Below, piece after piece: positions 10,105 through 28,575 of a DNA stretch of 64,000 nucleotides; the stretch's first letter is position 1, and every line of letters begins with the position of its first letter. The notes beneath the pieces are model-generated. The model made no database searches and was not told the origin of the DNA. It was given only the letters and a program-made list of their open reading frames with translations. The stretch is from a virus. The DNA lies in the IMG/VR virus record IMGVR_UViG_3300027608_000014, positions 1-64,000 of that record; one strand, written 5' to 3'. A program made the translations under genes and the position numbers.

Positions 10105-10309
10105 AATGCACGCAGATTATTTTCTAATAATCAAATTTTAACTATTGTTGATCGATACAAAAGTGGAGAGTCTCTGGATTCCATTGCAAGGTCCCTTGGC
10201 ACATCAAGAGGGACGATCCTAGAGAGGTCAAAATCAAAAGTGTTAATTCTGGACGTTTTCTTTATTCAACCATACAATTCAGTTACTTATGCCAAATACG
10301 CAAATTGAG
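10105..10309 (+). pseudogene. Helix-turn-helix remnant without start codon
   Basis: After the beta'-like gene's TGA-TGA the same frame is open to 10309 and encodes NARRLFSNNQILTIVDRYKS followed by GESLDSIARSLGTSRGTILE. This resembles the helix-turn-helix tail of HNH homing endonucleases or resolvases (K-L-T-x-x-Q-V...Y-x-x-G-x-S...I-A...G-V-S...T-I). There is no ATG, GTG or TTG in a useful place, and the frame runs into the next gene, so it looks like the 3' remnant of a lost mobile endonuclease. Apart from this remnant and a -10-like box the 187-base gap holds nothing I recognise. Confidence 0.45.
10273..10278 (+). promoter_or_regulatory. Candidate -10 box TACAAT before 10289
   Basis: TACAAT ends 10 bases before the ATG at 10289. 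No convincing -35 box is visible. Same geometry as the sites at 8200 and 25729. Confidence 0.3.
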
Positions 10310-13000: not shown

Positions 13001-14632
13001 ATGTCTAATAAATTCACCCAAATCTACCTTGCCACCCTTAACAAGAAGGCTGAGGACGCAATAAGTAATCCTCCATTTGGCTATTATCCTGATACTCAAA
13101 TGAACGATTCGGTACCTGGATGGATGGGGCGAGGTGGAGATGCAGATGTTTTAACTCCAAAACCTCTGGGCCTTCAGGCTCCATTTGTTTCCCGCAGTCT
13201 CCTACCAAGTCTTTCGCCAGCCAGAGTGTATCTTTCCAGCAATCAAATTGACGACAATGGCATCAATGGCATTGCTTACATTAACGCTCCTGGAGGGATA
13301 GATAATACTAATGGTATAGGAGAACAGCCAGCTCTTCGTCCCGGATTCCCACAGACAGTAAGGTCCTCAGGAATACCTGGCGCTGAACTCTCTTTGGGAA
13401 ACATACCTCCAGACCCAACTCCTCAGCTTCGCGCTACGCCTCCAGGACTAAGGCCAGACCCATCCGCCCTAGGCAAGAAGGCTGAAGCCTTCCCAGAACC
13501 AGGTCGCTTTACTCTTGAGGGGTCTAGGCCAAGTCAGGGTGCTGCTCCAGAGATTCTTGGATCAAGACCAAGTAGCTTTACTCTTGAGCATACAGCAGCA
13601 AGGCCGACTACGGGTTTGGCCTTCACCTCTGGAGTTGATCTGCCAGCTCCTGCGCCAACTATCCTCGATTTGCTCATAAAAAATAGGCTCCTAGCTGGTG
13701 CTGGACTCGCTGCTGCTGGAGCCGCTGGCTACATGGGCTACAAAGCCTTGAGCAAAAAGAAGAAGAAGAAAGGTGACGACGACGATGACGACAAGACCGC
13801 ATCCTTCACTGAGGCCTACTACAATGGCCGTAAAGGTCCACAGTCGTACGCTGACACCTACATTGCTGCATTCCATAAGAGAGCTCAGGATGAGCCCCTT
13901 AGTGCTATTGAGCTGGATTATGGGAATATGGCGAGTAATACAGAGGCAAAGAAGAGGTTGCAGCAAACGCTCACCGACGTCGAAAGAATCCGTCGAGCTC
14001 CCGATCCCGAGCCACTGACTCGCAGACAGCGGGAGGAGGAGCTCGCAGAGGAGGATAGAGGAAACATCGCGTTGGGCGCGCCGCTTCGACCAAGTCCATA
14101 TCGGGCGCCTAAGTCCAGGAATCCAATCAATATTGCATCTGATACTGTTATGAATGGTGCCGCAGCACGCCAGTCCGCGCCAGCACAACCATCAATTCAG
14201 GACAAGGTTCTGTCAGCGGCTCGCTCAGCTGGCAACCAGATCAAGTCAACGGCCACCTCAGCAGGCAATGCGATCTCTGATGCCTATGGCCGGGCCAATG
14301 ACTCTATGGGCAGTAAGCTTGCTCCAGTAATTTATCCTAAAGTCTACGAGGAAGCCGCTGGAGTCGATCGAAACATCCCGATCCTTATGGAGAACAGTAG
14401 ATTCGCTAAGGCAATCGCTCCTTTCGATCCAAAGGCTCCACCTAAGCCAGGTCGTCAGCTCTCTGCCTTCAGTAGACTAGGAACTCCTGGATTCTCTAAG
14501 AACAAACTCAATCCTCCTCCTCAGCTTACTGGACTCGTCAACAGTGCGGCTCAGAATATGAATCCTAGTATCTCGGTTTCAACTCCCTCGGCGGCCCCGC
14601 GCTGGAACTTCACCCCCAGTGCCAATCCGTAA
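13001..14632 (+). CDS. Putative head-targeted internal protein with glycine-zipper segment
   Basis: 543 residues. The N-terminus MSNKFTQIYLATLNKKA matches that of the protein at 26860 and looks like a cleavable targeting peptide. Residues about 60-220 are Pro/Gly-rich linkers, including LRATPPGLRPD, a phrase shared with the genes at 14637 and 26860. Residues about 230-250 (AGAGLAAAGAAGYMGYKAL) form a small-residue-rich hydrophobic helix, followed by a KKKKKKGDDDDDDK charge patch and KTASF. A second targeting-like phrase (YADTYIAAFHKRAQ) follows. The C-terminal half is disordered and basic. It could be an ejected membrane-active core protein. No known family is recognised. Confidence 0.8.
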   Translation: MSNKFTQIYLATLNKKAEDAISNPPFGYYPDTQMNDSVPGWMGRGGDADVLTPKPLGLQAPFVSRSLLPSLSPARVYLSSNQIDDNGINGIAYINAPGGIDNTNGIGEQPALRPGFPQTVRSSGIPGAELSLGNIPPDPTPQLRATPPGLRPDPSALGKKAEAFPEPGRFTLEGSRPSQGAAPEILGSRPSSFTLEHTAARPTTGLAFTSGVDLPAPAPTILDLLIKNRLLAGAGLAAAGAAGYMGYKALSKKKKKKGDDDDDDKTASFTEAYYNGRKGPQSYADTYIAAFHKRAQDEPLSAIELDYGNMASNTEAKKRLQQTLTDVERIRRAPDPEPLTRRQREEELAEEDRGNIALGAPLRPSPYRAPKSRNPINIASDTVMNGAAARQSAPAQPSIQDKVLSAARSAGNQIKSTATSAGNAISDAYGRANDSMGSKLAPVIYPKVYEEAAGVDRNIPILMENSRFAKAIAPFDPKAPPKPGRQLSAFSRLGTPGFSKNKLNPPPQLTGLVNSAAQNMNPSISVSTPSAAPRWNFTPSANP

Positions 14633-14636
14633 CGGG

Positions 14637-15743
14637 ATGTCACACATCGACTACTTCAGCGCCTATCGCAGCGGCGTGCGAAAGGTCGCTACGATCGTGC
14701 CGACTGCAGTAGAGCTCTACATGCAGGGCTTTCTTAAGCAGGCGGAAGTGCCCCCTTTCAAGCGATCGGTGGTTACTTCAACTGTCACCCCCCGCACGCC
14801 CTGGGCAAGATCATTCAGCGATCTGAGTGCATATCCTGGTCGACCAGTTCCAGGGGAAAACCGGCAAGGGCAGACAATTACATATTATACGCCGCCCGCA
14901 AATTCGCGCCCAGGATTTAGGCGATTGGCAGCGCTGAAGGGTAACGAGACTAATGCTCAGATGGATGCTTACCTGAGAGCACTGGCTGAACAAAACGCAG
15001 GCGATAGGGGCTCCTATAGGACTGTTTTTACCCCGCCAAGAGTAACTGAAAACTCGAGAGTGCTTAGTCAGAGCGAAGGCGATGCTATTTTCGGTCCTGT
15101 CCGTCCTCCTATTCAAACTCGGGTGGGAGAAGTCACACAAGTTCCAGGTGGAACTGTTGGGGAAAAGCCTCTGCCCGCCGGTGTCGTGTTCGGTCCTGAC
15201 GTAAAGACTCCACATGGAGGCTATCGTAAAATTCTGAATTCAACTCAGCAGACAGACATAAAGCCTCCAGAACTTCGCGCTACGCCTCCAGAGCTAAGGC
15301 CAGACTCAGCCCCAGCTCTAGAAGAGCCTCCAGCGGCACTAGCTGTATCTCAACTTCCAGGAGAGCTTGCTCAGCCGACACTGGGTGGCAGGTCGCTTCT
15401 GTCACCGGAAACCAAACGAGAGTCGGGCGCTGAATTCAAGCGTGACAATCCCGAGCTTGCGAAGATCAGCCCCAGTAAGCCAGCCAGGCCAGTCGATATC
15501 TCGCCTGATATGAATACTCAGTTTAAAAGATTTCACGGAACTAAGTTCGATCCAACCAGTAGGGTTGATAGAGAAAAGCTGACGAAACTTCCGCCAATTT
15601 CAGCTAAACCAGAACCCATCTCATCAGCTAAGAACACACAGTTTAAAGACTATCACGGAACTAAGTTCGATCCAACCAGTAGGGTTGATAGAGAAAAGCT
15701 GACGAAACTTCCGCCAATTTCAACTTTCGACACAACGGCGTAG
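14637..15743 (+). CDS. Putative head-targeted internal protein with HGT-PTSRVD repeats
   Basis: 368 residues from the ATG at 14637, 4 bases after the previous stop (an in-frame Met at 14619 overlaps the upstream gene). The N-terminus has two targeting-like phrases, YFSAYRSGVRKVA and ELYMQGFLKQA. The middle is Pro-rich and includes LRATPPELRPD. The C-terminus carries two copies of a ~35-residue module (NTQFK-x-x-HGTKFDPTSRVDREKLTKLPPIS), encoded by a nearly identical 120-base tandem repeat. A third copy of the module lies in the protein at 26860. It belongs to the same mosaic family as its neighbours; function unknown, probably packaged with DNA. Confidence 0.78.
   Translation: MSHIDYFSAYRSGVRKVATIVPTAVELYMQGFLKQAEVPPFKRSVVTSTVTPRTPWARSFSDLSAYPGRPVPGENRQGQTITYYTPPANSRPGFRRLAALKGNETNAQMDAYLRALAEQNAGDRGSYRTVFTPPRVTENSRVLSQSEGDAIFGPVRPPIQTRVGEVTQVPGGTVGEKPLPAGVVFGPDVKTPHGGYRKILNSTQQTDIKPPELRATPPELRPDSAPALEEPPAALAVSQLPGELAQPTLGGRSLLSPETKRESGAEFKRDNPELAKISPSKPARPVDISPDMNTQFKRFHGTKFDPTSRVDREKLTKLPPISAKPEPISSAKNTQFKDYHGTKFDPTSRVDREKLTKLPPISTFDTTA
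15533..15722 (+). repeat. 120-base tandem duplication within gene 14637
   Basis: The stretch 15533-15602 (tcacggaactaagttcgatc... ) recurs identically at 15653-15722, a period of exactly 120 bases, so the frame is kept. A diverged third copy is at 28009-28112. Confidence 0.9.
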
Positions 15744-15756
15744 GGGCTTAATCGTC

Positions 15757-17346
15757 ATGTTAAAGCGCGCAGAGGAACTTGGCGTAGTCAGCTTGGGTCG
15801 ACCAGCAAGGTCGCCCGAGCGCGTACTTGCGGGTCAGAAGCAGCTTCAGGCAATCAGAGACGAGTACGACAATCGTCACTACACTACCGCCAAGAATCTA
15901 GGCAAGTCATACCTGGGAGCATTCAAGGATCTGGGCTCCTTCCTTGCCACACCCACCAGACCTTTACCTGGAAGCAGAGCTGCTGTTCTTGAAGCGTCTA
16001 AGGGGAGTCCCGATTATGCCGTCAAGGCTGTAGGTGGACTCCTCCGTAGAGCAAAGAAGATGGATCAGGACGCAGGTCAGTGGATAATAGACAAAAACCA
16101 GCAGGCTGGCGACTATATTATAAATGGAGTCACGAATGCCGGTAAATCATTCGCTGCACATCCAGTTCAATCAACTAAGGAGTTTTTAAACGAAGGCTTC
16201 GTTGAGCCGACCAAAGGACTAGGGCAGCACATCCCAGCGTATATTGCGGCGGGCAAAGAACGTGGATGGATGTCTGATGAGGCTAATGATGAGCTCATGA
16301 ATGCTGGATTTAATGGGGTTCACCTTGGAACCAACCTTATGCTGGGCTTGGGTACTATTGGCAAGAGGATGGGATTGAATAGGCTGGCTGTGGCAGGAAG
16401 AAACAAGCTTCTCCCAGGGTTCGGGCTGCGGGCGGCGGCTAAGCTGGAGGCTGCTAAAGTTTTAGCCTCCAGCAAGGCTATTGCTAAACTGCCAGCTCCA
16501 AGATATTTGAACTCGCCAGCTAAAGGAGCGGACGGTCCACTCACCAGAGAAGGCATTGGAACCCTCAGTGGAGCAGATAAAGCTTGGCAAGCTGAACTGG
16601 CTGTACCAACTAGCTTCAATCCAACTAGCTTCAATCCAACTATCTTCAATCCAAACGCTTCCTGGTTACAGAAGGCCGTCCCTGTCTCTCCTGGTTTTGC
16701 TAAGGGAACGGCCCAAACGATCGCAGGAGCAGAATTACTAGCATGGAATGGATTGTTTCCGTCGATGACCAAACGGGATGCTCCGTCTCTACAAGATCAG
16801 AGCATCATAGGCCCCCTAACTGACGGGCCTGTTGAGGCACCTTTCTTTCAGGCTGCTCAGGCACAACAAGATGCCATTGATGACGCAAAACTATTTCAGG
16901 CCTTCACTGGCTTTCGAAAGTACCAGCCGATTAGTACGGCTCCATCTCTACAAGATCAGAGCATCATGGGTGCCCTAACTGACGGGCCTGTTGAGGCACC
17001 TTTCTTTCAGGCTGCTCAGGCACAACAAGATGCCATTGATAACGCAGATCTAAATCGTGCCCTCACTGGAGTCCCCGACTTCCAGCCGATCAGTACCGCT
17101 GCCTCCACTCCAGCCCCAGAGCTTTCAAGTCCAGACTCTAATCCAATCAATACGGCTCCACTCCAGCCAACGACTCTGCCTCCAGGAAGATCACTTCTTC
17201 CTTATGCTGGGTGGGTCGCTGGTGGCTTAGCTGCCGGTGGACTGCTGGCCTGGACGATAAACCACGCCAGGCAAAAGAAACTAGAAGCAAAGAAGCGGCA
17301 GTACCCTCTTGCTCAGCGCTATCCGGCACTGTATGGTTCCAGATAA
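15757..17346 (+). CDS. Putative internal virion protein with tandem repeat and C-terminal membrane segment
   Basis: 529 residues. It begins MLKRAEELG, so a K-x-A site lies at the very start. Residues 30-170 are helical and basic. A Pro-Asn repeat (TSFNPTSFNPTIFNP) is near 285. Two copies of a 53-residue module follow (PSLQDQSI... LTDGPVEAPFFQAAQAQQ). Near the C-terminus LLPYAGWVAGGLAAGGLLAWTI is a clear glycine-zipper-like membrane segment followed by a basic tail (NHARQKKLEAKKRQYP). This fits a DNA-ejection or pore protein; no known homologue is recognised. It ends one base before the next gene's ATG. Confidence 0.8.
   Translation: MLKRAEELGVVSLGRPARSPERVLAGQKQLQAIRDEYDNRHYTTAKNLGKSYLGAFKDLGSFLATPTRPLPGSRAAVLEASKGSPDYAVKAVGGLLRRAKKMDQDAGQWIIDKNQQAGDYIINGVTNAGKSFAAHPVQSTKEFLNEGFVEPTKGLGQHIPAYIAAGKERGWMSDEANDELMNAGFNGVHLGTNLMLGLGTIGKRMGLNRLAVAGRNKLLPGFGLRAAAKLEAAKVLASSKAIAKLPAPRYLNSPAKGADGPLTREGIGTLSGADKAWQAELAVPTSFNPTSFNPTIFNPNASWLQKAVPVSPGFAKGTAQTIAGAELLAWNGLFPSMTKRDAPSLQDQSIIGPLTDGPVEAPFFQAAQAQQDAIDDAKLFQAFTGFRKYQPISTAPSLQDQSIMGALTDGPVEAPFFQAAQAQQDAIDNADLNRALTGVPDFQPISTAASTPAPELSSPDSNPINTAPLQPTTLPPGRSLLPYAGWVAGGLAAGGLLAWTINHARQKKLEAKKRQYPLAQRYPALYGSR
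16783..17100 (+). repeat. 159-base in-frame tandem duplication within gene 15757
   Basis: Copies start at 16783 and 16942 (period 159 bases, 53 codons). The first two-thirds are almost identical and the last third has diverged (AFTGFRKYQPIST versus ALTGVPDFQPIST). Confidence 0.9.
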
Positions 17347-18285
17347 ATGGCTGACGAGGTAATTCCACAATTAAAGAGACTCCCACGATCACTAGAGGAG
17401 TCTTCTAGCTATTATCCTGACTGGCGAATGCGCCAGGTCCTGCAATATAACGCCTTAGAGGGAGCGGAGAGAGCGGCTCATGGACGAGGCTTTCAACTAC
17501 CCGACTGGGAAGATGACGAAGAGGTTCATCGCTACTTTGCGTATACCACACAGGGAGTAAGCTTTGATATAGCTGACACTAAAAGATTTTTCTATGCTGA
17601 TGAGGCCATCCAGCACAACTATCGCACAGGAGCTGCCGCCCGCATCAGATGCCTATTGATCGCTGGTGCGACACCTGACTTTGTCGCCAAGAGACTGGGA
17701 ACCAAGAAGGACCACATCGAAACCTTCTACAGGCTATACTTCGACATCGATCGGTGCTTGGACAACAAGGACTTCATGGCCAGTCTAGTATTTCCATTTG
17801 TGGTTCCCAGATCAGAGCCACCAGAGCAGAAGAAGGAGCGCCTGTGGAGAACAGGCGCCTTCCTAATGGACATCCCTGGATTCGACGCAATCTCACAGAA
17901 AAGAATCGACATGAACGCCGCTGACATCGAGAAGATGAACGGTCAGCTCAAGTCTCTAATGTACAGTCAAGGACTCGAGTACTGCTTGCACCGACGCGCA
18001 GGAATGCTTCCTGGCCCAGGAGACTTGGACAATGTCCTTGCCCATATGCAGATCCCTGCTACTGGAGACAGCGAGAGAGACAGCCAATCCTCAATCTTTA
18101 CTTCTAGTCTTGTTCAGGTGGCTGCAGAGAAATACAGCCTGACCACGACAACAAAAATCACAGATATTCAGGTTGTCTCCACTCGAATTGGACCCGCCAC
18201 TTCGTACGCTATACAAGACCTTGATTATTTTGCTGGAGACGAAGAGATAAACCAACTAGGATTACTGACTGATGAATACCGCTGA
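17347..18285 (+). CDS. Helix-turn-helix-containing protein of unknown role
   Basis: 312 residues. Near residues 98-125 the phrase LLIAGATPDFVAKRLGTKKDHIETFYRLYFD reads as a helix-turn-helix of the kind that recognises DNA or organises a small ATPase partner ('G-x-x-x-x-x-I-A-x-x-L-G-x-x-x-x-x-I'). N-terminal residues 20-70 are acidic and aromatic (WRMRQVLQYNALEG). A LPGPGDLDNVLAHM loop is at about 223. No K-x-A enrichment, membrane segment or signal. It overlaps the next gene by 14 bases. It might be a packaging or connector factor, but no such assignment can be proved. Confidence 0.75.
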   Translation: MADEVIPQLKRLPRSLEESSSYYPDWRMRQVLQYNALEGAERAAHGRGFQLPDWEDDEEVHRYFAYTTQGVSFDIADTKRFFYADEAIQHNYRTGAAARIRCLLIAGATPDFVAKRLGTKKDHIETFYRLYFDIDRCLDNKDFMASLVFPFVVPRSEPPEQKKERLWRTGAFLMDIPGFDAISQKRIDMNAADIEKMNGQLKSLMYSQGLEYCLHRRAGMLPGPGDLDNVLAHMQIPATGDSERDSQSSIFTSSLVQVAAEKYSLTTTTKITDIQVVSTRIGPATSYAIQDLDYFAGDEEINQLGLLTDEYR

Positions 18286-19585: not shown

Positions 19586-19593
19586 GCATAACT

Positions 19594-20661
19594 ATGAACA
19601 AATTAGCTTTCTTAGACTCTATTCGTCAGGGTATTCGGGGCATAGTTGACAAGGGCTACAATGCTGTCAACGATGCTGCCAAGAGTCTTACCCAAGGGAA
19701 TCTTGATCCTCGGACTGGAACTTATCCCGCTGACGGACTGTCACTGGACCAACTTGGCAATAAGTACCACGACAATCTCGTTTACGGCCTAGCCGGAACA
19801 GCTGTCGGTGGCGGTATTGGTGCACTCACTACTGACACTGAAGAGGATAAAACATTTGGAGATAAACTCAGACATCGTCTACGTAATGCGCTTACTGGCG
19901 GTATTGCTGGCGGTGCCGTGGGACTTGGTGGAAAGGTATTTGTTGATAGCTACGTCACTAAGCCAGATCTCCCTAAGAGGCCTTCTTACTATGGTGCTGA
20001 ACTGGGAAAGAAAGTTGATAACTTTTTTGGAGTCAACAAAAATGAAAGTCTGACCGTCGAACAGGTAGCAAATCGAGCAAGGGCGGAAGCGACAGCCAAA
20101 CCGGGCGCGACACCGAAGTCTATTGATGCGGATGTAAAAGCGGCTGTTGAGGCCACAACCGCTCCTCTTGGACCTGTAGAGACCGCCGTCGCGATAGCTA
20201 ATCCAATGACAGGCTCAGAGGTTGGTAGGTCCGCTAGCGGTGCATTGATTGCAGGGACCCTTGGAGAGGGGGTCGTCCGCCTTGGTAATAATAGGATAGA
20301 TCCTATTGTTGTGAGCGATAACGTGAGTAAAAGACTGAATGACTTCAAGCTTACCAGGATGACTACAGGAACGCCAGGTGCCCCAGGAATAGCAGCTATC
20401 GATCCTGCACTAAAAGCCCCCGGCGCTGAATCTCCTTATCGTAAAGGATTCTCTCTGAAAAGACTAACCAACCAGCAGGCGCTTGATGAGATGACTCTAC
20501 TGAGAGACTCACCAAAGCCAGGAACAAGGGCTCTCAAGAGATACGGCCTTACAAATAGAATGCCGATCGGAAAGGGACCCAGGGCCCTTCAGGCTCTAGC
20601 TGCATTTGCGGGACTAGTTGGCGCCAACGTGGTCGGAAAACCCAACGTAGAACCCAAGTAA
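19594..20661 (+). CDS. Putative internal virion protein with glycine-zipper pair
   Basis: 355 residues. The first 25 residues are amphipathic (MNKLAFLDSIRQGIRGIVDK). Two Gly/Ala-rich hydrophobic helices follow: about residues 65-85 (GLAGTAVGGGIGALTTD) and 100-118 (ALTGGIAGGAVGLGGKVFVD), the classic spacing of a glycine-zipper hairpin that inserts into or spans a membrane. A third short hydrophobic stretch lies near the end (ALQALAAFAGLVGANVVG). The rest is basic and probably extended. Its stop overlaps the protease ATG by one base (TAATG). Likely packaged in the head and delivered to the cell envelope, by analogy of architecture only. Confidence 0.78.
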   Translation: MNKLAFLDSIRQGIRGIVDKGYNAVNDAAKSLTQGNLDPRTGTYPADGLSLDQLGNKYHDNLVYGLAGTAVGGGIGALTTDTEEDKTFGDKLRHRLRNALTGGIAGGAVGLGGKVFVDSYVTKPDLPKRPSYYGAELGKKVDNFFGVNKNESLTVEQVANRARAEATAKPGATPKSIDADVKAAVEATTAPLGPVETAVAIANPMTGSEVGRSASGALIAGTLGEGVVRLGNNRIDPIVVSDNVSKRLNDFKLTRMTTGTPGAPGIAAIDPALKAPGAESPYRKGFSLKRLTNQQALDEMTLLRDSPKPGTRALKRYGLTNRMPIGKGPRALQALAAFAGLVGANVVGKPNVEPK

Positions 20662-21989
20662 TGGACAAGATTGTTTTCAACGACAGCTTCGACTATGGAA
20701 CTGATCTTCCACTGGCCACCATCGCTGATGATCCAATGGTCCTGCGTAAGTGCGCTTCGTCTGTCTCGGATGGATGGGGCAAGATTGACCCAATCAAGGA
20801 TCACACGTTGATTCATCTAATTGCCCTAGGCGCCCACGAGAAGACTGGTCGTAATAGAAATGCAGACTCTTGGAGAGAAAATGTTCTCAGGCAGAAGCAC
20901 GGAACATTCAAGACCCACGGCAAGCTCTACCACAACCATCTGGCAGAAGAGGGCAAGGAAGAGGGCTTCGTCCACAAGACCGCCTTCAACGAAGACATGG
21001 GCCGTGCAGAACTGGTCATTGCTGCAGATAACGATAAGTGCGCCGCCTGGCTGGGAGACGTTGAAAAAGGGAAACCAGTGAGTTTCTCCATGGGATTCAA
21101 GTGTACTCATCCAGGAGACGAGTGCTCTATCTGTGGTAACTTTGCAGCTAAGAGAGAAGATTACTGCAAGCATCTAAAGAAGAACGCCTCAGCACCGTAC
21201 GGACTGAATCGAATTCTTCCCGATGGTCGTGCGTGTTTTGCTTTCAACGATGCGGGATTCTTTAACGACATCTCCAAGGTTCCTATTGGCGCTGATCAAA
21301 TCGCCATGGGCCTTCGCAAGGTTGCGTCTCTGTCTTCCGATGAAGTGATCGGTGGAGCAGAACTAGCTGAGCAATACTTCATTCATCACAGCGATGTGGA
21401 TCACGGCAAGGTTGCCATCGTTCTAAAGCTGGCTGACATCGAGAAACGCATTGAGTCGATCGGTACTGGCATCAAGGGATCTAGAAAGAGATCCCTCTGC
21501 AAGGTGGCGATGGACAAACTTCGTGAAGCTCCAACTAAAGAAATGTTCCTCGAGCTGTCCAAGCTGGGAGCTATTCTGCCGATGGTCGATTTTTACAAAC
21601 TTGTTTTTGGTTCGGAATTTGCGAATCACGAACGCGCCATCAATAAGGCCGCAAGCTACGAGGCAAACTTTTTTTTAGCTATTGCAGCCGACAAGGAGAG
21701 ACTGCGCAGCGTGTGCTCCAATACTACCTACGATCCTGCACCCATTAGCCACGTTCGTTTGGACTACGAAAGTAAGCGAGCAATTGCAGCTGAGTATTCT
21801 ATTGATACTGAGCTTGCCGCAGATCGCGCCATTAAGCGTGCAGCTTTGCTTGACAGTATTCCTCCAGCGAATACTATTTCATCCCAAGATAACTATCTGA
21901 TCGACCAATACGGCGCTTACAAAATTAGCGCGTTGAAGGCGATCAGCCCAGAAGTGAACGACGAAATTCTTTTTGCATCACTTATTTAG
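20661..21989 (+). CDS. Prohead maturation protease (gp21-like)
   Basis: 442 residues. Residues about 50-150 fit the prohead serine protease fold: GAHEKTGRNRNADSW (57-71) is the usual opening, H86/H91 in KTHGKLYHNH are candidates for the catalytic His, and S141/S143 in GKPVSFSMGFK for the nucleophile. A Cys cluster (C148, C154, C157, C169; CSICGNFAAKREDYCKHL) follows and may bind zinc. The region after 200 is extra to a minimal protease and may be a propeptide or scaffold-binding domain; it contains K-x-A sites (KCAS, KVAS, KVAI, KVAM). Position directly before the scaffold and capsid genes matches T4 order. It should cleave scaffold, capsid and internal proteins in the prohead. Confidence 0.88.
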   Translation: MDKIVFNDSFDYGTDLPLATIADDPMVLRKCASSVSDGWGKIDPIKDHTLIHLIALGAHEKTGRNRNADSWRENVLRQKHGTFKTHGKLYHNHLAEEGKEEGFVHKTAFNEDMGRAELVIAADNDKCAAWLGDVEKGKPVSFSMGFKCTHPGDECSICGNFAAKREDYCKHLKKNASAPYGLNRILPDGRACFAFNDAGFFNDISKVPIGADQIAMGLRKVASLSSDEVIGGAELAEQYFIHHSDVDHGKVAIVLKLADIEKRIESIGTGIKGSRKRSLCKVAMDKLREAPTKEMFLELSKLGAILPMVDFYKLVFGSEFANHERAINKAASYEANFFLAIAADKERLRSVCSNTTYDPAPISHVRLDYESKRAIAAEYSIDTELAADRAIKRAALLDSIPPANTISSQDNYLIDQYGAYKISALKAISPEVNDEILFASLI

Positions 21990-22029
21990 TTGCAGCGTAA
22001 CAATCTATCCCATAACATCCACTAAACAT

Positions 22030-23427
22030 ATGCATAAACAAGCGTCAGTAGGCAGTATCCTAGACTCCTTTTCAAAGTTCTACAGTCCCAAGACGGCAGG
22101 TCATGACTCTCAGGGCTTTCACGAATCACCCGCTCCTGCTACCAAGACGGACGAGGAAACTGCATCAGCTCTAATTACTCCAGGAACTAACGTTCCTAAT
22201 GCCGTCAACTCCGCTGGAGTTGACGCAGGAACATCGATGTCCTGTTGCCCCGCTAACATCCCAACTGAAGAGCTCGTCCGCAAGGAACAGAGTGTGTCGG
22301 CCAAGATCGCTGCGGCTCCAGGTAGCGTTGAAGAGCTAGTCAGTCGACTCTCTGGTAATCTTCTCAAGATCGCTGGAGGCGAAACACTGGCAGCCCAGAC
22401 GGTGGAACCGGTGGAACCAGTAGAAGCCAACAAAGTTGCTTCTGTCATTTCCGAAGTAAATATTGATCTTCTAGCGCAGAAGACAGCAGCCTTTCTAGCG
22501 GCCACCGAGTTTGGTTATAATAAAGCCAAGGAAGTCTTTGCTCCTCAGACCAAGATCGCAGCTCCCTCGCTCACTCTCCCAGAAGACATCGAGGCTCGTA
22601 TCGAAAGTCGAGTTTACGAACTCAAGACTGCAGGCCTAAACGACCAGCAGATCTACGCTCAGCTTCAGGCTGACGGTCAGGCTGACGCAGAGATCCTGAC
22701 AAAAGAGGCCGAAGTTGCGGAAATCACCCGGCACAATCTGGCATCGTTTGTTGAGCAGAAAATTGCAGCGCAACTTAATGCTGGCACCATTTCCTCACAA
22801 CAGGCTGAGATTCTACTGACCGATCTAGGTTATGAAACTGATACCGTCAAGCTAGCCAGCATCGAGCAGGCAGTTGATCATAAGGTTGCTTCACTCCGTC
22901 ATCAGTATCCAGCGATTACTGACGAGCAGATTATGGAAGTTCTCCAGAAAGACGCTGAGGCTGACGCCGCAGCGATGGTTGATCCAAATGCGATGCCTCC
23001 AAATGAAATGGTCGATCCAAATGCGATGTATCCAGATGAGAGGCCTCCAGGCGAGATGCCTCCAGGTGCCGAAGGTGAAATGCCTGCAGGTGCTGAAGAA
23101 GAATTGGCCGCTCAATTGCAGCAGGCCATTGCTGAACTACAGCAGGCAGTTGAAGCGGGACAGATGACTGAAGAGCAGGCTCTACAGTTGCTTGAAGAGG
23201 CCGGTCTAGACGTTCAAGGGATGCTCGCTGCTGCAGGCGCTGCGCTTGAAGCCCCAGTCGCTGAAGGTGCAGAGGCTCTTCCAGCCGATGCCTACGCAGC
23301 TGAGGAGGGGGCCGAAAAGAAAGAAGCCGCTCTGACCGATCTCATTGCTGCAGCTGACAGGGCTTATCTAGCGGGTAGTCTCACTAAGGCTCAGGCCAAT
23401 TCAATGGTCGCAGCTCTCAAAGCTTAA
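22030..23427 (+). CDS. Prohead scaffold/core protein
   Basis: 465 residues. The start at 22030 is chosen because the frame's earlier Met (21973) lies inside the protease gene. It is acidic and helical, with no membrane segment. Fourteen or so Lys-x-Ala tripeptides are spread over its length (KQAS, KTAG, KIAA, KIAG, KVAS, KTAA, KIAA, KTAG, KEAE, KIAA, KLAS, KVAS, KDAE, KEAA). A Pro/Met-rich repeat (about 335-375) precedes an acidic coiled coil (LAAQLQQAIAELQQAVEAG). Place between protease and capsid, together with repeated candidate cut sites, is what a scaffold degraded to peptides (T4 gp22-like) should look like. The first K-x-A is at residues 3-5. Confidence 0.85.
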   Translation: MHKQASVGSILDSFSKFYSPKTAGHDSQGFHESPAPATKTDEETASALITPGTNVPNAVNSAGVDAGTSMSCCPANIPTEELVRKEQSVSAKIAAAPGSVEELVSRLSGNLLKIAGGETLAAQTVEPVEPVEANKVASVISEVNIDLLAQKTAAFLAATEFGYNKAKEVFAPQTKIAAPSLTLPEDIEARIESRVYELKTAGLNDQQIYAQLQADGQADAEILTKEAEVAEITRHNLASFVEQKIAAQLNAGTISSQQAEILLTDLGYETDTVKLASIEQAVDHKVASLRHQYPAITDEQIMEVLQKDAEADAAAMVDPNAMPPNEMVDPNAMYPDERPPGEMPPGAEGEMPAGAEEELAAQLQQAIAELQQAVEAGQMTEEQALQLLEEAGLDVQGMLAAAGAALEAPVAEGAEALPADAYAAEEGAEKKEAALTDLIAAADRAYLAGSLTKAQANSMVAALKA

Positions 23428-23434
23428 TTATCAC

Positions 23435-23827
23435 ATGGACTCACAGATCGAATCAGTAATTGCGGACTCCAAGGCTCTGCTCGCTCTTGCGGGTCCAGCT
23501 TTTGAGGCTCAGAAAAAAGTAGCAGCCCTAGAAACTTCCAAGGTAGAGTTGCTCTCCAAGGTAGCTTCATTGGAGAAAGCTAGCACCGATCGCGAATCGA
23601 TCATCAAGACTGCTGCCGATGAAGCTGCAGAATTCTTTGATGCTCGTGGTATGCTCAAGGTGTCAGCCGAAGACTTCAGTGCCCGTCTTCAGTCAAATCC
23701 CGCCGAGATCTTTTCTGTAGTACAGAAGTTTACAGATGCTTCGACCCAAAAAGAAGCGGGCGCACCAATGGAAAATACATTGGCTGACGATGGACTTGAT
23801 CCAATTCAAAGATTTGTTCGTAGCTAA
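23435..23827 (+). CDS. Small coiled-coil head/core protein
   Basis: 130 residues, 7 bases after the scaffold stop. Helical and coiled-coil-like throughout (LETSKVELLSKVASLEKAST... IIKTAADEAAEFFD) with K-x-A sites KVAA, KVAS, KTAA and KEAG. It resembles the scaffold in composition and may be a second core component or a chaperone for the capsid protein. No known domain. A 170-base untranslated gap follows before the next gene. Confidence 0.8.
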   Translation: MDSQIESVIADSKALLALAGPAFEAQKKVAALETSKVELLSKVASLEKASTDRESIIKTAADEAAEFFDARGMLKVSAEDFSARLQSNPAEIFSVVQKFTDASTQKEAGAPMENTLADDGLDPIQRFVRS

Positions 23828-23997
23828 AAGATTTTTCTTTTAAGCCATAAACTTTTCATCTAATATTCTCAACATTCAAGCGAGTCAAAGGCCAGAGCCA
23901 GAGACTCACAATCACCCGCGACGCTAACAGTGACAGAGATAGATCTCTGCTCGGAGCACCAACACTAATTCCAAAATAAAGGAATCATCACTCTATT
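23828..23997 (+). promoter_or_regulatory. 170-base untranslated region before the capsid genes
   Basis: No gene is visible. It contains a short T-rich run after the stop, a TAATAT box (23861-23866) without a clear -35, and a 16-base palindrome CAGAGAT-AG-ATCTCTG (23934-23949) that would form a 7-base-pair stem in RNA. AAAGGAA lies 13 bases before the ATG at 23998. This is a plausible leader for high-level capsid expression. Confidence 0.4.
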
Positions 23998-24528
23998 ATG
24001 AGTATCGCAAATAAAGTTAACTTCAAGAAGGGCTGGCCCTCTTCCACTATCCTGGAAACGGTCGCACTTCCTCCAGCTTCTGGAACACTAGAAGCAGGTA
24101 TGGTCGGGTATCTCGACTACGCTACAGGCAAGTGGGTTCTGGGTATGACACAGTCCATTGTTGGTCTGTCTCAGGTCCCCCATATCTTCCACAATGACGC
24201 AGCTGACGGTGACGTCGGTAATGCCTCAGCAGACAACTTCATCTCAAACCCAGTCAAATTCGGCGGTGTTCATGGAATTTCCCTTCAGAACCCTCTGGAG
24301 ATCGAAACCACACAGTTTACAGCCAATTCTCTGCTCGTCCCAGGTGCTGGTGTTTACGCAGCAGCTGGAACCGGTCTTCTGACTTATGGTTCTCTTCCTG
24401 CCTCTCTAACAACTAGCATCGGTGGTGGCAATAAGGTGATCATCGGAATCGTAACTGAAGCCTCGCACAGCTACCAGGGCCTCAACTACATCACGATCGT
24501 TCCGATCCAGCCAGTTCTACAGGCCTAA
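23998..24528 (+). CDS. Probable capsid decoration/stabilisation protein
   Basis: 176 residues, beta-rich with many Gly and small residues (PPASGTLEAGMVGYLDYATG; LLVPGAGVYAAAGTGLLTYG), ending ITIVPIQPVLQA. It lies just before the major capsid gene, where lambda-D-like or other decoration proteins are often encoded. N-terminus MSIANKVNFKKGWP has no K-x-A motif, so it may be added after maturation. It is preceded by the 170-base leader, suggesting strong expression. Family not recognised by sequence. Confidence 0.75.
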   Translation: MSIANKVNFKKGWPSSTILETVALPPASGTLEAGMVGYLDYATGKWVLGMTQSIVGLSQVPHIFHNDAADGDVGNASADNFISNPVKFGGVHGISLQNPLEIETTQFTANSLLVPGAGVYAAAGTGLLTYGSLPASLTTSIGGGNKVIIGIVTEASHSYQGLNYITIVPIQPVLQA

Positions 24529-24549
24529 TTCTAAAAGGAACAACTAATC

Positions 24550-25632
24550 ATGTCTAATACAAATTCAGTTCTCAGCACCCAGTTCTTCTCCAAGCTCGCG
24601 TCTTCGGACCCAGGCGTGCAGAAGCAAGCCGCAGAAGCCGCAACAGACTACACTCGTATCACTCTTCGTGACGAGGGTATCCTACGTAAGATTCTCCCAG
24701 TAGAGTCGATCACCGAAGCGCAGCTGGACAACCAGCTCAACACTGACCAGCCGGTCAAGATCGTTGAGAAGGAAGTTCAGACTCCTCTTGGAGCCTCAGT
24801 GCCCTTCAGCACTCTGCCAAGCAACGTTGAGATGAACTTCAGCAAGTACTCAGTCAACTTTGCTCGCATCTTGACCAAGAACTTCATCAAGGACGTTCAG
24901 CTTCTAAAGGGTTATAATACCGACATCCGCAACATCTTCAAAGACAATGCGATCAAGGACATGATGACCGCCGAAGACGTGCCTTTCATGGCCCTCATCG
25001 ATGCGATCGTTACTCCGCAGTCGACGCTCGTTCAGGCAACGGCCGCCGCGACCGCTCTGGCTACCCCAACAGAAGTTGCAGCTCGTATCGCTGATACCAC
25101 TGGTGTCTACGGTAACCAGGTCAGCAAACTAACTGGCAAAGTGCAGTACTACGATTGGACCCATGCAAATGGTAACCCTCTCGGTGCCGCTCTTGGATTC
25201 TCCCGTGATTCGCTGGTCGAATCCAAGAAGATCCTGTTGAAGGCTCACTCGCTGACCAACGCTGGCGTGTCGACCCCGATCCGCAACAAGCCAGCCCTCG
25301 TCCTCATGAACGCTAATACGTTCAGCGAATACGAGAAGTTCACTCGCGACAACATGGGTGGCGACAAGTCCCAGGAACTCTTTGAAAAGGGTGTTTCCGA
25401 AGGAACATATAACGGTCTGAAGCACGTTACCACGCTCAAGGATGATATCGTCCTCGACGGTATGGCGTACTACTTTGCCGCGCCAGAATTCCTAGGCCGC
25501 GCCTACGAACTCCAGTCCCCAACAATGTTCATGGAGCTTCGTGCATACCTGCTCGAGTTCTTCGCTTACAGCTGCCTGGGCGCCTCAATCGGCAACCCTT
25601 ATGCAGTGGCTGCTGTTCGTTTCTTCAGATAA
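24550..25632 (+). CDS. Major capsid protein (best candidate)
   Basis: 360 residues. The N-terminus carries two K-x-A sites, K15-L-A17 and K25-Q-A27, then a core with HK97-type features: an extended N-arm (TRITLRDEGILRKILP), a long helix (NIFKDNAIKDMMTAEDVPFMALIDAIV, about 125-150), and a C-terminal domain with TPIRNKPALVLMNANTFSEY and an AYLLEFFAYSCLG segment. It follows the protease and scaffold and has a Shine-Dalgarno-like AAGGAA 9 bases before the ATG. A strong terminator follows the gene. Position and features make it the major capsid protein; the exact fold was not checked. Cleavage at a K-x-A would remove about 17-27 residues. Confidence 0.82.
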   Translation: MSNTNSVLSTQFFSKLASSDPGVQKQAAEAATDYTRITLRDEGILRKILPVESITEAQLDNQLNTDQPVKIVEKEVQTPLGASVPFSTLPSNVEMNFSKYSVNFARILTKNFIKDVQLLKGYNTDIRNIFKDNAIKDMMTAEDVPFMALIDAIVTPQSTLVQATAAATALATPTEVAARIADTTGVYGNQVSKLTGKVQYYDWTHANGNPLGAALGFSRDSLVESKKILLKAHSLTNAGVSTPIRNKPALVLMNANTFSEYEKFTRDNMGGDKSQELFEKGVSEGTYNGLKHVTTLKDDIVLDGMAYYFAAPEFLGRAYELQSPTMFMELRAYLLEFFAYSCLGASIGNPYAVAAVRFFR

Positions 25633-25651
25633 GCTAGGATCAACAATTAAC

Positions 25652-25681
25652 AAAGGCCACACAGAAATGTGTGGCCTTTTT
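25652..25681 (+). terminator. Intrinsic terminator after the capsid gene
   Basis: GGCCACACA (25655-25663) pairs with TGTGTGGCC (25668-25676), loop GAAA, with A-run before and T5 after. Almost the same stem as the terminator at 7732. Confidence 0.9.
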
Positions 25682-25728
25682 GTTGTCTATGTATCAATAT
25701 CAATCTTCCCAACTCATACTAACCACGC

Positions 25729-25734
25729 TACAAT
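25729..25734 (+). promoter_or_regulatory. Candidate -10 box TACAAT before 25744
   Basis: TACAAT ends 9 bases before the ATG at 25744, downstream of the capsid terminator, so the following genes need their own start. No clear -35 box. A leader of about 3 bases is predicted. Confidence 0.4.
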
Positions 25735-25743
25735 AACCCGCAA

Positions 25744-26157
25744 ATGCAAGACCTCGAATTTATTAACGCTCCGCAGACTGGAGAATCCGCTGAAACTTAC
25801 TTGGGCCGAATTGCTGTTGCTATGCGTGGGACATCTTCTCGTGGTCTCACCTCCAGTGCCCGCTTTACTAGCGCGGACCAATCGGCAGCTGTGGCCAGTG
25901 TCACCCCGGTTCCAACTACTGGACAAAAACTTGTCATCACTGATCTGATCGTTTCTGTTGGAAGCGCTCTAACAGTTAACTTTACAGAAGAGACTACAGG
26001 AACGGTATTACTGACACTATACATGGCAGCAAACTCCACTGTGACCGTCTCTCCTCGTGGGCTCTTTAAGCTAACCACGATCAATAAAAGGCTACAGGTC
26101 CAGACTAGCGGTGCCGGAAACATCTCGGTCCTAGCCTTCTACCGATCCGAAGCGTAA
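25744..26157 (+). CDS. Probable head-decoration or head-completion protein
   Basis: 137 residues. It begins MQDLEFINAPQTGESAETYLGRIAVAMRG and then becomes beta-rich with Thr/Val strands (TTGQKLVITDLIVSVGSAL; TGTVLLTLYMAANSTVTVSP), like small virion accessory proteins. No K-x-A site. It follows the capsid terminator, with its own possible promoter. A role at the head surface is inferred from position only. Confidence 0.75.
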   Translation: MQDLEFINAPQTGESAETYLGRIAVAMRGTSSRGLTSSARFTSADQSAAVASVTPVPTTGQKLVITDLIVSVGSALTVNFTEETTGTVLLTLYMAANSTVTVSPRGLFKLTTINKRLQVQTSGAGNISVLAFYRSEA

Positions 26158-26206
26158 TACCTCTGACGACGGGGCCTTTTGATGTCGCCTCTTTGATTTC
26201 ATAATT

Positions 26207-26860
26207 ATGTCTCTCCTTAGATTCAGTCAGACCTTCATATTTCCAGGAACACTTGTCGACGAACAGGTGTTCGGGATCTTTACTGCTGATGTCGGCGTAA
26301 ACATCAATCAGGCTCAGATATCCTGCCAGACTGCTCCTACAGGAGCCAACGTAACTGTAGATCTAGTCAATGGAGCAGGAACCTCTTTGTCCGCACTAGC
26401 AACTCTGACTGCTGCCTCAAAGGATCAAGTTACCACCTTTAATTCGCCAATTTCTGTAGCAGCGAATGAGACCATAAGAGCGAAGATCAAATCTATTGGA
26501 AGTTCCGAGCCAGGAGTGTTTCTAGTTCTTACAATCATTGGAACGTACGATCCCACTGAAATAGATGAAGTCTTCCCAGATGCCGTTGATGTCTGCACGT
26601 TGTTCGGCTATCAGTATGTGAACGGACTGCCAACCGTAGGCACTCGCGTCTCGATCAGACTAAATGAATCGCCAGTTATATCCTCGACGACCGTTTTCGA
26701 ACACGAGCCTCGCAGCGTGGATACAGATGAAGATGGATACTGGGAGATGGATCTGGTACAAAACCAGAACTACTTGCTGACTATCTGGAAGTCTGGCATT
26801 CTCAATCAGTCGATTGTGATTCCGGCTCAAAACACTTGCAACGTAGCCACACTAATTTAA
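26207..26860 (+). CDS. Virion protein with carboxypeptidase-regulatory-like beta domain
   Basis: 217 residues. The first ~110 are beta-sandwich-like (TLVDEQVFGIFTADVGVNIN... VFLVLTIIGTYDP). The C-terminal ~80 (CTLFGYQYVNGLPTVGTRVSIRLNESPV... DTDEDGYWEMDLVQNQNYLL) fit the carboxypeptidase-regulatory/Ig-like fold, including the typical T-D-E-D-G-Y-W-x-x-D-L turn. Such domains decorate phage capsids or tails. The stop overlaps the next ATG by one base (TAATG). Function inferred: surface decoration, possibly binding glycans. Confidence 0.75.
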   Translation: MSLLRFSQTFIFPGTLVDEQVFGIFTADVGVNINQAQISCQTAPTGANVTVDLVNGAGTSLSALATLTAASKDQVTTFNSPISVAANETIRAKIKSIGSSEPGVFLVLTIIGTYDPTEIDEVFPDAVDVCTLFGYQYVNGLPTVGTRVSIRLNESPVISSTTVFEHEPRSVDTDEDGYWEMDLVQNQNYLLTIWKSGILNQSIVIPAQNTCNVATLI

Positions 26861-28575
26861 TGAATAAGTTTACACAATTCTACTTGAACGAGATGAACAA
26901 GAGAGCTGCGATAAATTGGCCTTCAATCATAAAGAAGGTCAAGAGTGTTATTGCTTTAAACGCCGCACCGGTTGGCGCAGCCGCCGGTGGTGGGTACCTA
27001 AACTATGATGAGAATGATCCCATAAGATCAGCAGCCATTGGTGCCATCTCAGGATACGGTGCTACCCATATGGGACAAGGAGGGGCTAAGTTACTTCCAC
27101 AGACCGCCAAGTGGAGACCAATGAGAGCAGGTCTAGTCGGCACCTCAATGCTTGCTGGTGATGTTATTATTCCACAGGGACGTGAAATGATGCGTACCTC
27201 AAAGGAACTCAATATGGCTGACACCGCTCTTAAGTTAGAGCAAAAGAATTTCCTCCTAAATCCTCCACCAGCCGCTCCGACACCCGCTCAGCTTTACGGG
27301 CCTCCGATGCCGACGCCAGCTGCTCCCGCACCAGCTGCTCCCGCACCAGCTGCTCCCGCACCAGTTACTATCAACACTCCTAGCAAACAGAATATCAACT
27401 TGATCCCAGGTGGTCCAGCAGTCCAGTGGGCCGCAGGGCTCACCGCTCTAGGGCTGTCTGCTGCTGGCATCTACGCTTTATCACAGATTGCTCGAGCCAA
27501 TAAGCGTAAAGCTGACGGCAAGGAAACCCCTCCAGTTACCAACATCAATATGACCGGTGGTGGCGGTGAAGGTGGTGCACCTGGTGCACCTGGCGCTCCA
27601 GCTGGACCGGCTAAGCCTTCTGCTGGAACTCTCAGGGTTACACTTCCAACTCGCAATGGAAAAGATAATGAGACCCAGGTCGAGATGCCACTTGAGCAGA
27701 TCGGTCTCTCCAAGACTCTGATCAATAAGATTCGTCGTGACACCAAGCGCAGGCTACGACTTGAAAGCGACGGTCGCACGCTCCACGTCGTTCCACCAGC
27801 AACGGCGGCTACCAAGATCGCAAGATTTACAAGGAGGCCACTAAACTTTGACCACATCCTCAAGAGAGCAGACTCGACTGGACTTGACACTGCCCCCTCG
27901 AAGTCATCACCGCCTTCCGCTATTCCTAAGCTTCGCGCCGCCTCTCCAGGGCTAAGGTCCACGCCAGCTGTGATTAAGCCAGGAATCGTCAGGCCAGCTA
28001 AACCAGGCGATATCTCGCCTGAGATGAATGATCAGTTTAAAAGATTTCACGGAACTGACTTCGAGCCAACCAGTAGGGTTGATCAGCAGAAACTAAAATC
28101 ACTGCCGCCGATCAAAGTGCCTCAGCCTCCCAAGGCACCAGCGCCTGCAGCGCCTGCTCCAGCGGCACCAGCTCCCTTGTCAGCTACTCCAGTTCCATTT
28201 AAGGATCCTAATGAAGAAGAAAATGCAATCTTTGACCAAAAGAACAAAGATCTCCTAGCAGCGTCCTCGTCGAAGAATTTCTATCGTGACCGAGCGCAGA
28301 AAGGTACGATCAATCAGAACAACGATATTGCAGCAGGACGACTAAGTGGATTTGAATCACCCTTGCCAGAGCCATCTGTGAAGACCGATAGCGGTTATCC
28401 AGGCATGAGCCTGACTCCTTCTCGCCCCGCTGAACTCCAGCCAGCGCCTGAGCGGCTCGTTAAAAACCAACAACGTAGGGAGGATAAAAAGTTCCTAGAT
28501 TTCCTCGCCCGGAAGCCGAAAATTCCAGACGAACAAGTTCTTCGGCAAGGCGGGGAGGTTCCGGTTACTGATTAA
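26860..28575 (+). CDS. Putative head-targeted internal protein, mosaic with 13001 and 14637
   Basis: 571 residues from ATG 26860. N-terminus MNKFTQFYLNEMNKRA matches MSNKFTQIYLATLNKKA of the protein at 13001. Residues about 30-75 (APVGAAAGGGYLNYDENDPIRSAAIGAISGYGATHMG) form a glycine-zipper hairpin; residues about 200-220 (LTALGLSAAGIYALSQIA) form a second hydrophobic helix. Pro-Ala repeats (a 15-base DNA repeat) and a collagen-like GAPGAPGAP stretch link them. Then come KIAR, LKRAD, LRAASPGLRSTP and one HGTDFEPTSRVD module shared with 14637. The C-terminus is charged. Likely cleaved and packaged with DNA; role as a membrane-active ejection protein is inferred. Confidence 0.8.
   Translation: MNKFTQFYLNEMNKRAAINWPSIIKKVKSVIALNAAPVGAAAGGGYLNYDENDPIRSAAIGAISGYGATHMGQGGAKLLPQTAKWRPMRAGLVGTSMLAGDVIIPQGREMMRTSKELNMADTALKLEQKNFLLNPPPAAPTPAQLYGPPMPTPAAPAPAAPAPAAPAPVTINTPSKQNINLIPGGPAVQWAAGLTALGLSAAGIYALSQIARANKRKADGKETPPVTNINMTGGGGEGGAPGAPGAPAGPAKPSAGTLRVTLPTRNGKDNETQVEMPLEQIGLSKTLINKIRRDTKRRLRLESDGRTLHVVPPATAATKIARFTRRPLNFDHILKRADSTGLDTAPSKSSPPSAIPKLRAASPGLRSTPAVIKPGIVRPAKPGDISPEMNDQFKRFHGTDFEPTSRVDQQKLKSLPPIKVPQPPKAPAPAAPAPAAPAPLSATPVPFKDPNEEENAIFDQKNKDLLAASSSKNFYRDRAQKGTINQNNDIAAGRLSGFESPLPEPSVKTDSGYPGMSLTPSRPAELQPAPERLVKNQQRREDKKFLDFLARKPKIPDEQVLRQGGEVPVTD
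28009..28112 (+). repeat. Third copy of the HGT-PTSRVD module
   Basis: About 104 bases that align without gaps with 15495-15598, including gtttaaaagatttcacggaa and ccaaccagtagggttgat. The DNA similarity is much higher than needed for protein conservation, suggesting recent copying between genes 12.5 kb apart. Confidence 0.8.

Follow-up and report, generated by a model that had tools for sequence, protein, structure and literature searches.

The question raised by this locus is which sequence the head protease of an uncultivated virus would recognise in the proteins of its prohead, and how its internal proteins would be addressed to that prohead. The stretch analysed (the window) comprises bases 1-64000 of the 148,872-base virus record IMGVR_UViG_3300027608_000014, and it holds a cluster of head genes around a candidate prohead protease whose products carry the tripeptide K-x-A many times. 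A preliminary description of this DNA had proposed K-x-A as the cleavage code of the protease, unlike the (I/L)-x-E of phage T4, and a peptide starting NKFTQ as a targeting tag. The code is strongly supported by the counts and alignments of 34 to 48 genomes, a T4 control, fixed sites and flanking residues, and the tag is supported in part, while the capsid cleavage site that had been chosen fared badly. Overall, it is highly likely from the sequences that K-x-A is the cutting code of the head protease and that N-terminal peptides in this lineage double as targeting tags. The two genes on which the comparison was built are:

20661..21989, plus strand: prohead protease candidate, 442 residues, assigned from PHROG matches, aligned catalytic residues and gene order
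24550..25632, plus strand: major capsid protein of HK97 fold, assigned from profile, model and sequence matches

Relatives of the head genes

Single proteins of the window gave almost no matches in Pfam and PHROG, and the window protease searched alone as a single protein had no match in IMG/VR. By tblastn, both the capsid protein and the protease have homologues in Salmonella phage Arash and three Vibrio phages (D69, D148 and D181), and the protease has further homologues in Bacillus phage G and an uncultured phage of 485 kb. The motif first received independent backing from D181 and Arash, the D181 scaffold reading ...LEKVAAVDALMAQG...VKEASAQL...LEKSAAVQEL... An alignment of four capsid proteins was then used to retrieve 65 IMG/VR loci, to which the cultured D181 and Arash were added; of all loci and records searched, 46 also contain the protease. 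Below, L-numbers denote loci, L007 being that of the closest relative and L003 belonging to the source genome, which is also denoted G000. As the loci come from environmental assemblies and some were near-identical, they were clustered before counting; the genomes remain related by descent, and gene calls in the relatives are automatic.

K-x-A in head and tail genes across genomes

A total of 34 non-redundant genomes entered a blind motif test, in which the head genes spanned the interval between a point 3.5 kb upstream of the protease and the capsid gene; the capsid protein was left out because it had been used to find the loci. Every spaced residue pair (0-6 residues between; 2,786 pairs) was compared with its expectation inside each protein. 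K-x-A ranked first of the 2,786 pairs in the head genes (1,860 vs. 891 expected, z 32.4), whereas it ranked 598th in the tail genes (350 vs. 329), and each genome with countable tail genes had K-x-A more commonly in head than in tail genes. The next-ranking pairs in the head genes included L-x-K, M-x-K, E-K and K-x-x-S, all belonging to the flanks of this motif, while no a-x-E pair appeared in the top 14, so that a Glu-specific x-x-E motif did not emerge. Among 1,839 pairs in T4 gp67, gp68 and gp21-gp24, the same scan put I-x-E at rank 1 and L-x-E at rank 9. This recovers the known T4 gp21 cleavage code, L/I-x-E (PMC9026906), and thereby validates the blind method.

Moreover, a logo of 1,817 head sites, with positions numbered from the presumed scissile bond, gave the fuller motif [L/M]-x-K-x-A|[S/A]. 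Preferred residues were L or M at P5, E at P4, K at P3 and A at P1; P2 was Q, T, I, V or E and rarely Pro, Asp, His or Trp; P1' was S, followed by E and A, with Pro avoided; P2' was V, E or D, and there was almost no preference from P3' onwards. The logo is diluted, as about half of the K-x-A sites are expected by composition. Such a preference from P5 to P2' is the profile that the subsite footprint of a protease would leave, and from its spread, together with the precedent of x-x-E| sites, we infer a cut after the Ala.

A, E and K abound in scaffold proteins, and the helix signals LxxxA and GxxxG were enriched too, as would be expected if the K-x-A excess were a by-product of the Lys- and Ala-rich composition of helical scaffolds. 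Nevertheless, neither permutation within proteins nor dipeptide-preserving shuffles reproduced the excess (970 +/- 28 in the shuffled head genes of the 34 genomes vs. 1,860 observed), and a spacing of i,i+2 is not a helical period. Furthermore, A-x-K and the scrambled orders were not raised to the same degree: [LM].K.A reached 83.7 per 10,000 residues in head genes and 11.4 in tail genes, while its order-scrambled versions reached at most about 25 in head genes. Together with the fixed sites conserved in diverged proteins other than the scaffold, this makes the compositional explanation very improbable; at the family level it was rejected by the two shuffles and the tail-gene and scrambled-motif controls, and it may hold for single sites.

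Fixed sites in the protease and the capsid protein

Four K-x-A sites in these two proteins were considered:

20748..20756, plus strand: KCA, protease residues 30-32, predicted propeptide cut
21318..21326, plus strand: KVA, protease residues 220-222, predicted autocleavage site at the end of the catalytic domain
24622..24630, plus strand: KQA (VQKQA; K25-Q-A27), capsid protein residues 25-27, conserved and predicted cleavage site
24592..24600, plus strand: KLA (FFSKLA; K15-L-A17), capsid protein residues 15-17, site of the preliminary description, not conserved

Regarding the protease, PHROG 18299 ('head maturation protease') matched 24 of 28 family members, and the gene lies upstream of the scaffold and major capsid protein genes in the window and in 34 loci. 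The hhalign alignment to T4 gp21, weak in score (E 0.07), placed H93 and S143 on H85 and S140, which we take to be the catalytic residues of T4 gp21, and both are invariant in the alignment of the family. K-x-A was found at A32 in 36/36 homologues, phage G included, with a variable middle residue (T, Q, S, K, V, C, R, E and others) and L, F, M or I at P5, and likewise at A222 in 36/36. In the AlphaFold2 model, confidence was < 50 at residues 1-36, > 80 just past the A32 site and < 50 from residue 225, the only confidently folded domain spanning about residues 40-222; by these bounds both invariant sites edge the folded domain. Autocleavage outside the catalytic domain is predicted from their invariance. 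Much longer proteases of 900-1,100 residues, with large K-x-A-rich extensions past the catalytic domain, were observed in three relatives (L058:3199-6540, L075:3002-5902 and L039:4075-6864), looking as if a core protein and a protease had been fused in a herpesvirus-like manner.

The capsid protein matched phage G gp27 by profile (6wkk, E 1.7e-20) and HK97 capsids by its model (Foldseek, E 1.6e-8), and it is 27-29% identical to the capsid proteins of Arash and D181. K-x-A at A27 was found in 47 of 48 non-redundant homologues, the remaining one being truncated at a contig end. Circularity was considered here, as the capsid search had used two patterns, one of them containing K-x-A: 33 of the 48 matched only the pattern without K-x-A and 15 the one containing it, and all but the truncated sequence kept the site whichever pattern had matched. 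The protease sites and the scaffold counts had no part in any search pattern. Mean identity across the homologues carrying these fixed sites was 33% for the protease and 43% for the capsid protein, and the middle residue varied at all three. No conserved K-x-A column was found at residues 15-17 in the alignment of the relatives' capsid proteins, and FFSKLA, previously taken as the cut site, is thus probably wrong. As the capsid model has helices at residues 2-16 and 21-42, the A27 site falls within the start of the second helix, which cutting would shorten. Upstream of the capsid gene, L007 has two adjacent paralogous genes for decoration-like proteins (8733-9245 and 9299-9931), while the window has one (23998-24528).

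A motif that recurs in this way could also be a binding element, mediating contact between scaffold and capsid or between cargo and core, rather than a cutting site: its many copies in scaffold and core proteins would suit multivalent docking, and it also closes the N-terminal tags described below. Such a reading is improbable, given that the enzyme itself has an invariant K-x-A at either edge of its catalytic domain, that P1' is small and Pro is avoided around the bond, and that the blind T4 control finds the T4 cleavage motif by the same signature.

Under the cutting code, a serine protease of the herpesvirus/T4 type (20661) would cut the prohead core, the capsid protein and the cargo after the Ala of [L/M]-x-K-x-A|[S/A]. 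It would release its own catalytic domain at A32 and A222, take about 27 residues off the capsid protein, fragment the scaffold and further core proteins by numerous cuts, and trim short N-terminal peptides from the cargo. Before their removal, these peptides (NKFTQ-x-Y-L in the window and M-N-K-Y-L-E-K-I-A in relatives) would bind the core and so act as capsid-targeting tags. The motif with its enrichment, conservation and placement and the modular use of the tag are direct observations, and from them are deduced this packaging role, the cut after Ala and the assignment of the cuts to this protease.

K-x-A in the proteins of the window

Proteins other than the protease and the capsid protein are named below by their first coordinate; expected counts in the window derive from permuting the residues within each protein (3,000 permutations).

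10289..12982, plus strand: head-cluster protein, 14 K-x-A vs. 4.4 expected; homologue in L007
18272..19585, plus strand: core/prohead protein, 14 K-x-A vs. 3.9 expected (P < 1/3000)
19594..20661, plus strand: Gly-zipper-like head-cluster protein, starts MNKLA, only 2 K-x-A
22030..23427, plus strand: scaffold candidate, 465 residues, starts MHKQA, 14 K-x-A vs. 4.2 expected (P < 1/3000)
23435..23827, plus strand: small head-cluster protein, 130 residues, 4 K-x-A vs. 1.7 expected (P 0.07)

Pooling 11 head-cluster proteins, 75 K-x-A were counted against 39.0 +/- 5.7 expected, a number reached by 0 of the 3,000 permutations, while the remaining proteins of the window had 32 vs. 47.8 expected. A dipeptide-preserving shuffle of the head set around the protease gave 26.2 +/- 5.7 vs. 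47 observed. The excess in the head set was due to 10289, 18272, the protease (11 vs. 4.2 expected, P 0.001) and the scaffold candidate, with 11-14 sites each where about 4 are expected. Relatives have comparable proteins: about 8-17 K-x-A each at the scaffold position, about 3-9 at the position of 23435, and 12 in the L007 homologue of 18272. Among tail-type proteins, the sheath had none, the tube (33673) one, the gp6-like protein (44508) one and the 46150 protein three, none of them above chance.

The observations of the preliminary description were therefore confirmed in part. Its count of about 14 K-x-A in the scaffold and its mention of recurrence in 10289, 18272, 23435 and the protease agree with these numbers, and the N-termini it quoted are all present (MSNKFTQIYLATLNKKA in 13001, MNKFTQFYLNEMNKRA in 26860, GFLKQA at residue 36 of 14637, MLKRA in 15757, MHKQA in 22030 and FFSKLA in 24550). 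Its statement that tail proteins have no K-x-A holds for the sheath but not for the tube, gp6-like and 46150 proteins. In 13001, 14637, 15757, 24550 and 26860, the total number of K-x-A was not above chance, so that any signal in these proteins lies solely in where individual sites fall.

N-terminal tags

In one branch of the relatives, many small proteins start with M(x)NKYLEKIA. Scanning IMG/VR DNA for NKYLEKIA returned 84 stretches, many contigs having several copies, while the reversed pattern was found in none of the records tested. The peptide lay within eight residues of a Met in 138 occurrences and elsewhere in 15. A total of 136 distinct tagged proteins were obtained, 110 of them non-redundant, which fell into about 54 groups without detectable similarity past the tag, an upper estimate given that short proteins may hide kinship. 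Copies within one genome differ at synonymous codon positions, which indicates that NKYLEKIA is kept as a peptide. The relatives thus have one mark of a capsid-targeting sequence, namely a short N-terminal peptide on unrelated proteins that ends at a predicted protease site, and the carriers would be packaged; in the window, this applies to two proteins. Gly-zipper repeats occur in some tagged proteins, and some are helicases of the SNF2 type (Pfam E 6e-17 and 3e-22), for which the tags predict packaging and ejection along with the DNA:

L163:4827-6278 and L091:5264-6832: SNF2-type helicases tagged with NKYLEKIA or a near variant, matched by Pfam
L135:1612-3069, L153:2074-3525 and L018:203-1651 (minus strand): tagged SNF2-type helicases, by similarity to the two matched by Pfam

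One tagged family had a weak PARP-like match (L124; E 3e-4, below the curated cut-off). A stretch YHG...I...GL was observed in the tagged proteins L124:6690-7997 (minus strand), L099:138-917 (minus strand) and L117:2669-3343, which are possibly packaged ADP-ribosyltransferases, to be compared with T4 Alt.

Four proteins of the window are candidates for internal proteins:

13001..14632, plus strand: internal/ejected protein candidate, residues 1-17 (MSNKFTQIYLATLNKKA) a predicted targeting tag ending in K-x-A
26860..28575, plus strand: internal/ejected protein candidate, residues 1-16 (MNKFTQFYLNEMNKRA) the same predicted tag
14637..15743, plus strand: internal protein candidate, N-terminal K-x-A at residues 18 and 36 (GFLKQA)
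15757..17346, plus strand: internal protein candidate with MLKRA at its start; its 2 K-x-A do not exceed chance

The N-termini of 13001 and 26860 are identical at 10 of 15 positions (pairwise E 0.002) and follow the form NKFTQ-x-Y-L-x-x-x-N-K-x-A, which has the same build as the relatives' tag and occurs in these two window proteins only. By analogy with NKYLEKIA, NKFTQ likely has a targeting role, as had been proposed, although within this genome the proposal draws on two proteins and the peptide was found nowhere else in IMG/VR. On the other hand, with the cutting code being real, NKFTQ could merely reflect the shared ancestry of two related internal proteins. This gene set does exchange modules, as 13001 and 26860 have a short LRA-x-PGLR stretch in common, and 26860 and 14637 an FHGT module (E 1e-17); the restriction of NKFTQ to this genome points the same way. 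However, outside the tag, 13001 and 26860 have only short low-scoring pieces in common, and the equally placed tag of the relatives, with the same build and cut site, stands on about 54 unrelated families. Ancestry without targeting, which bears on the tag half only, is therefore rather unlikely, and a targeting peptide is preferred.

Further repeats were observed in these proteins. A second tag-like stretch lies at about residues 267-295 of 13001 (FTEAYYN...YADTYIAAFHKRA), where YADTYIAAFHKRA at 283-295 ends in K-x-A, as if two tagged proteins had been fused; no homologues of 13001 were found in IMG/VR. A module of 40-50 residues around FKRFHGTKFDPTSRVDREKLTKLPPI is present in two copies in 14637-15743 and in one copy in 26860-28575.

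Comparison with known head proteases

The prohead proteases of T4, phiKZ, 201phi2-1 and SPN3US all cut after Glu (PMC9026906, PMC10052503, PMC5694885), with the motifs S/A-x-E for phiKZ gp175 and A-x-E for SPN3US gp245 (PMC9026906, PMC10052503). The system described here resembles that of T4 gp21 in its gene setting, the aligned catalytic His and Ser, the free P2 residue and a scaffold with many predicted cuts, but differs in having Ala instead of Glu at P1, Lys instead of Leu/Ile at P3, and extra preferences at P5, P4 and P1', besides weak similarity of the protease sequence. As for the tags, T4 has N-terminal peptides of 10-19 residues on unrelated internal proteins that also end in a cut site, although their sequence is unrelated. 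The first ten residues of T4 internal protein III (IPIII) suffice for packaging, and IPII has the same peptide (PMC9026906); this minimum equals the length of the relatives' MxNKYLEKIA. Autocleavage at the C-terminus of the protease, many cleaved internal or ejected proteins and multiple sites per propeptide would be shared with phiKZ and SPN3US, and the Ser preference at P1' with SPN3US, whereas P1 is Ala, unlike in gp175 and gp245, and the tags are short, unlike the SPN3US propeptides, which are mostly long (six of eight have 111-254 residues). Herpesvirus assemblins cut at an A|S scissile bond, and Lys at P3 is not known to be required by herpesvirus proteases. As in the assemblins (pUL26 family; PMC4498786), the protease would free itself at a release site and cut the scaffold, but herpesvirus protease and scaffold form one fused precursor. 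Bacillus phage G (gp14, gp19, gp21, gp27) has a homologous protease with both K-x-A sites and a homologous capsid protein (6wkk); K-x-A ranked first among its portal, protease and two core proteins, and fourth when all eight head proteins were pooled, I-x-E ranking 1,659th and L-x-E 699th. No tag was found among the phage G genes examined. As x-x-E pairs do not lead and P1 is Ala with Ser favoured next, the system is classed with prohead proteases that work like that of T4, very probably through a homologous enzyme, but outside the Glu-specific subgroup.

Several points weigh against this reading. Phage G, unlike the window phage, has a capsid protein without K-x-A, and the listed sequence of its solved chain retains the N-terminus, so that some capsid proteins do without the code. 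A Foldseek search of the protease model against the PDB gave no match below E 0.001, probably because of the low-confidence tails; an assemblin-like fold is thus a candidate assignment, drawn from the aligned catalytic residues and the PHROG matches. Moreover, not every K-x-A can be cut, given that about half of the head total is expected from composition, and NKFTQ-type tags searched for in IMG/VR were unique to the source genome. The literature search yielded no N-terminal or semi-tryptic proteomics for this phage or any relative.

In the literature searched, a specificity with Ala at P1 and Lys at P3 has not been reported for phage head proteases, and no paper was found that contains NKYLEKIA, links 'prohead protease' to 'K-x-A' or deals with Arash. 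It is fairly probable that a large, mostly uncultured lineage, including phage G and at least one 485-kb genome, relies on a head protease specific for Ala at P1 and with Lys at P3, a specificity closer to the herpesvirus A|S bond than to T4, plus a modular address-and-cut tag from which packaged and ejected proteins could be listed, among them helicases and possibly ADP-ribosyltransferase-like proteins. An Ala-specific relative would broaden the range of the prohead protease family and offer a point of comparison with herpesvirus proteases, while code and tag would allow head and ejected proteins to be recognised where nearly all genes of a genome are annotated as hypothetical, as with the tagged helicases and the 11-site protein described below. 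Long-standing questions about the proteins that enter the cell with large phages would thereby become directly testable.

Further genes of the source genome and relatives

Outside the window, the portal gene was located in the source genome:

132910-135012 of the source genome: portal, homologous to a D181 protein (E 7e-50) and matched by a PHROG portal family (E 0.004)

Two K-x-A are present near the C-terminus of the portal, and the proteins at 135581, 136681 and 140314 of the same genome have an N-terminal K-x-A. Far from the head cluster, a minus-strand gene (G000:83582-84550; L003:82-1050) encodes a protein of 322 residues with 11 K-x-A vs. 2.5 expected and a weak DUF6582 match; from this number of sites, the code predicts a head-core protein. 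In the 485-kb uncultured phage (LR745208, L012:19695-24690), the protease, core and capsid genes have K-x-A, with NKLA near the capsid N-terminus, which suggests that the code reaches very large phages. Finally, adjoining the head genes at 8215-10101, the window encodes an RNA polymerase beta/beta'-type protein (PHROG 3015, E 1e-18), which could be a virion RNA polymerase subunit and whose homologues adjoin the head genes in D181 and Arash as well.

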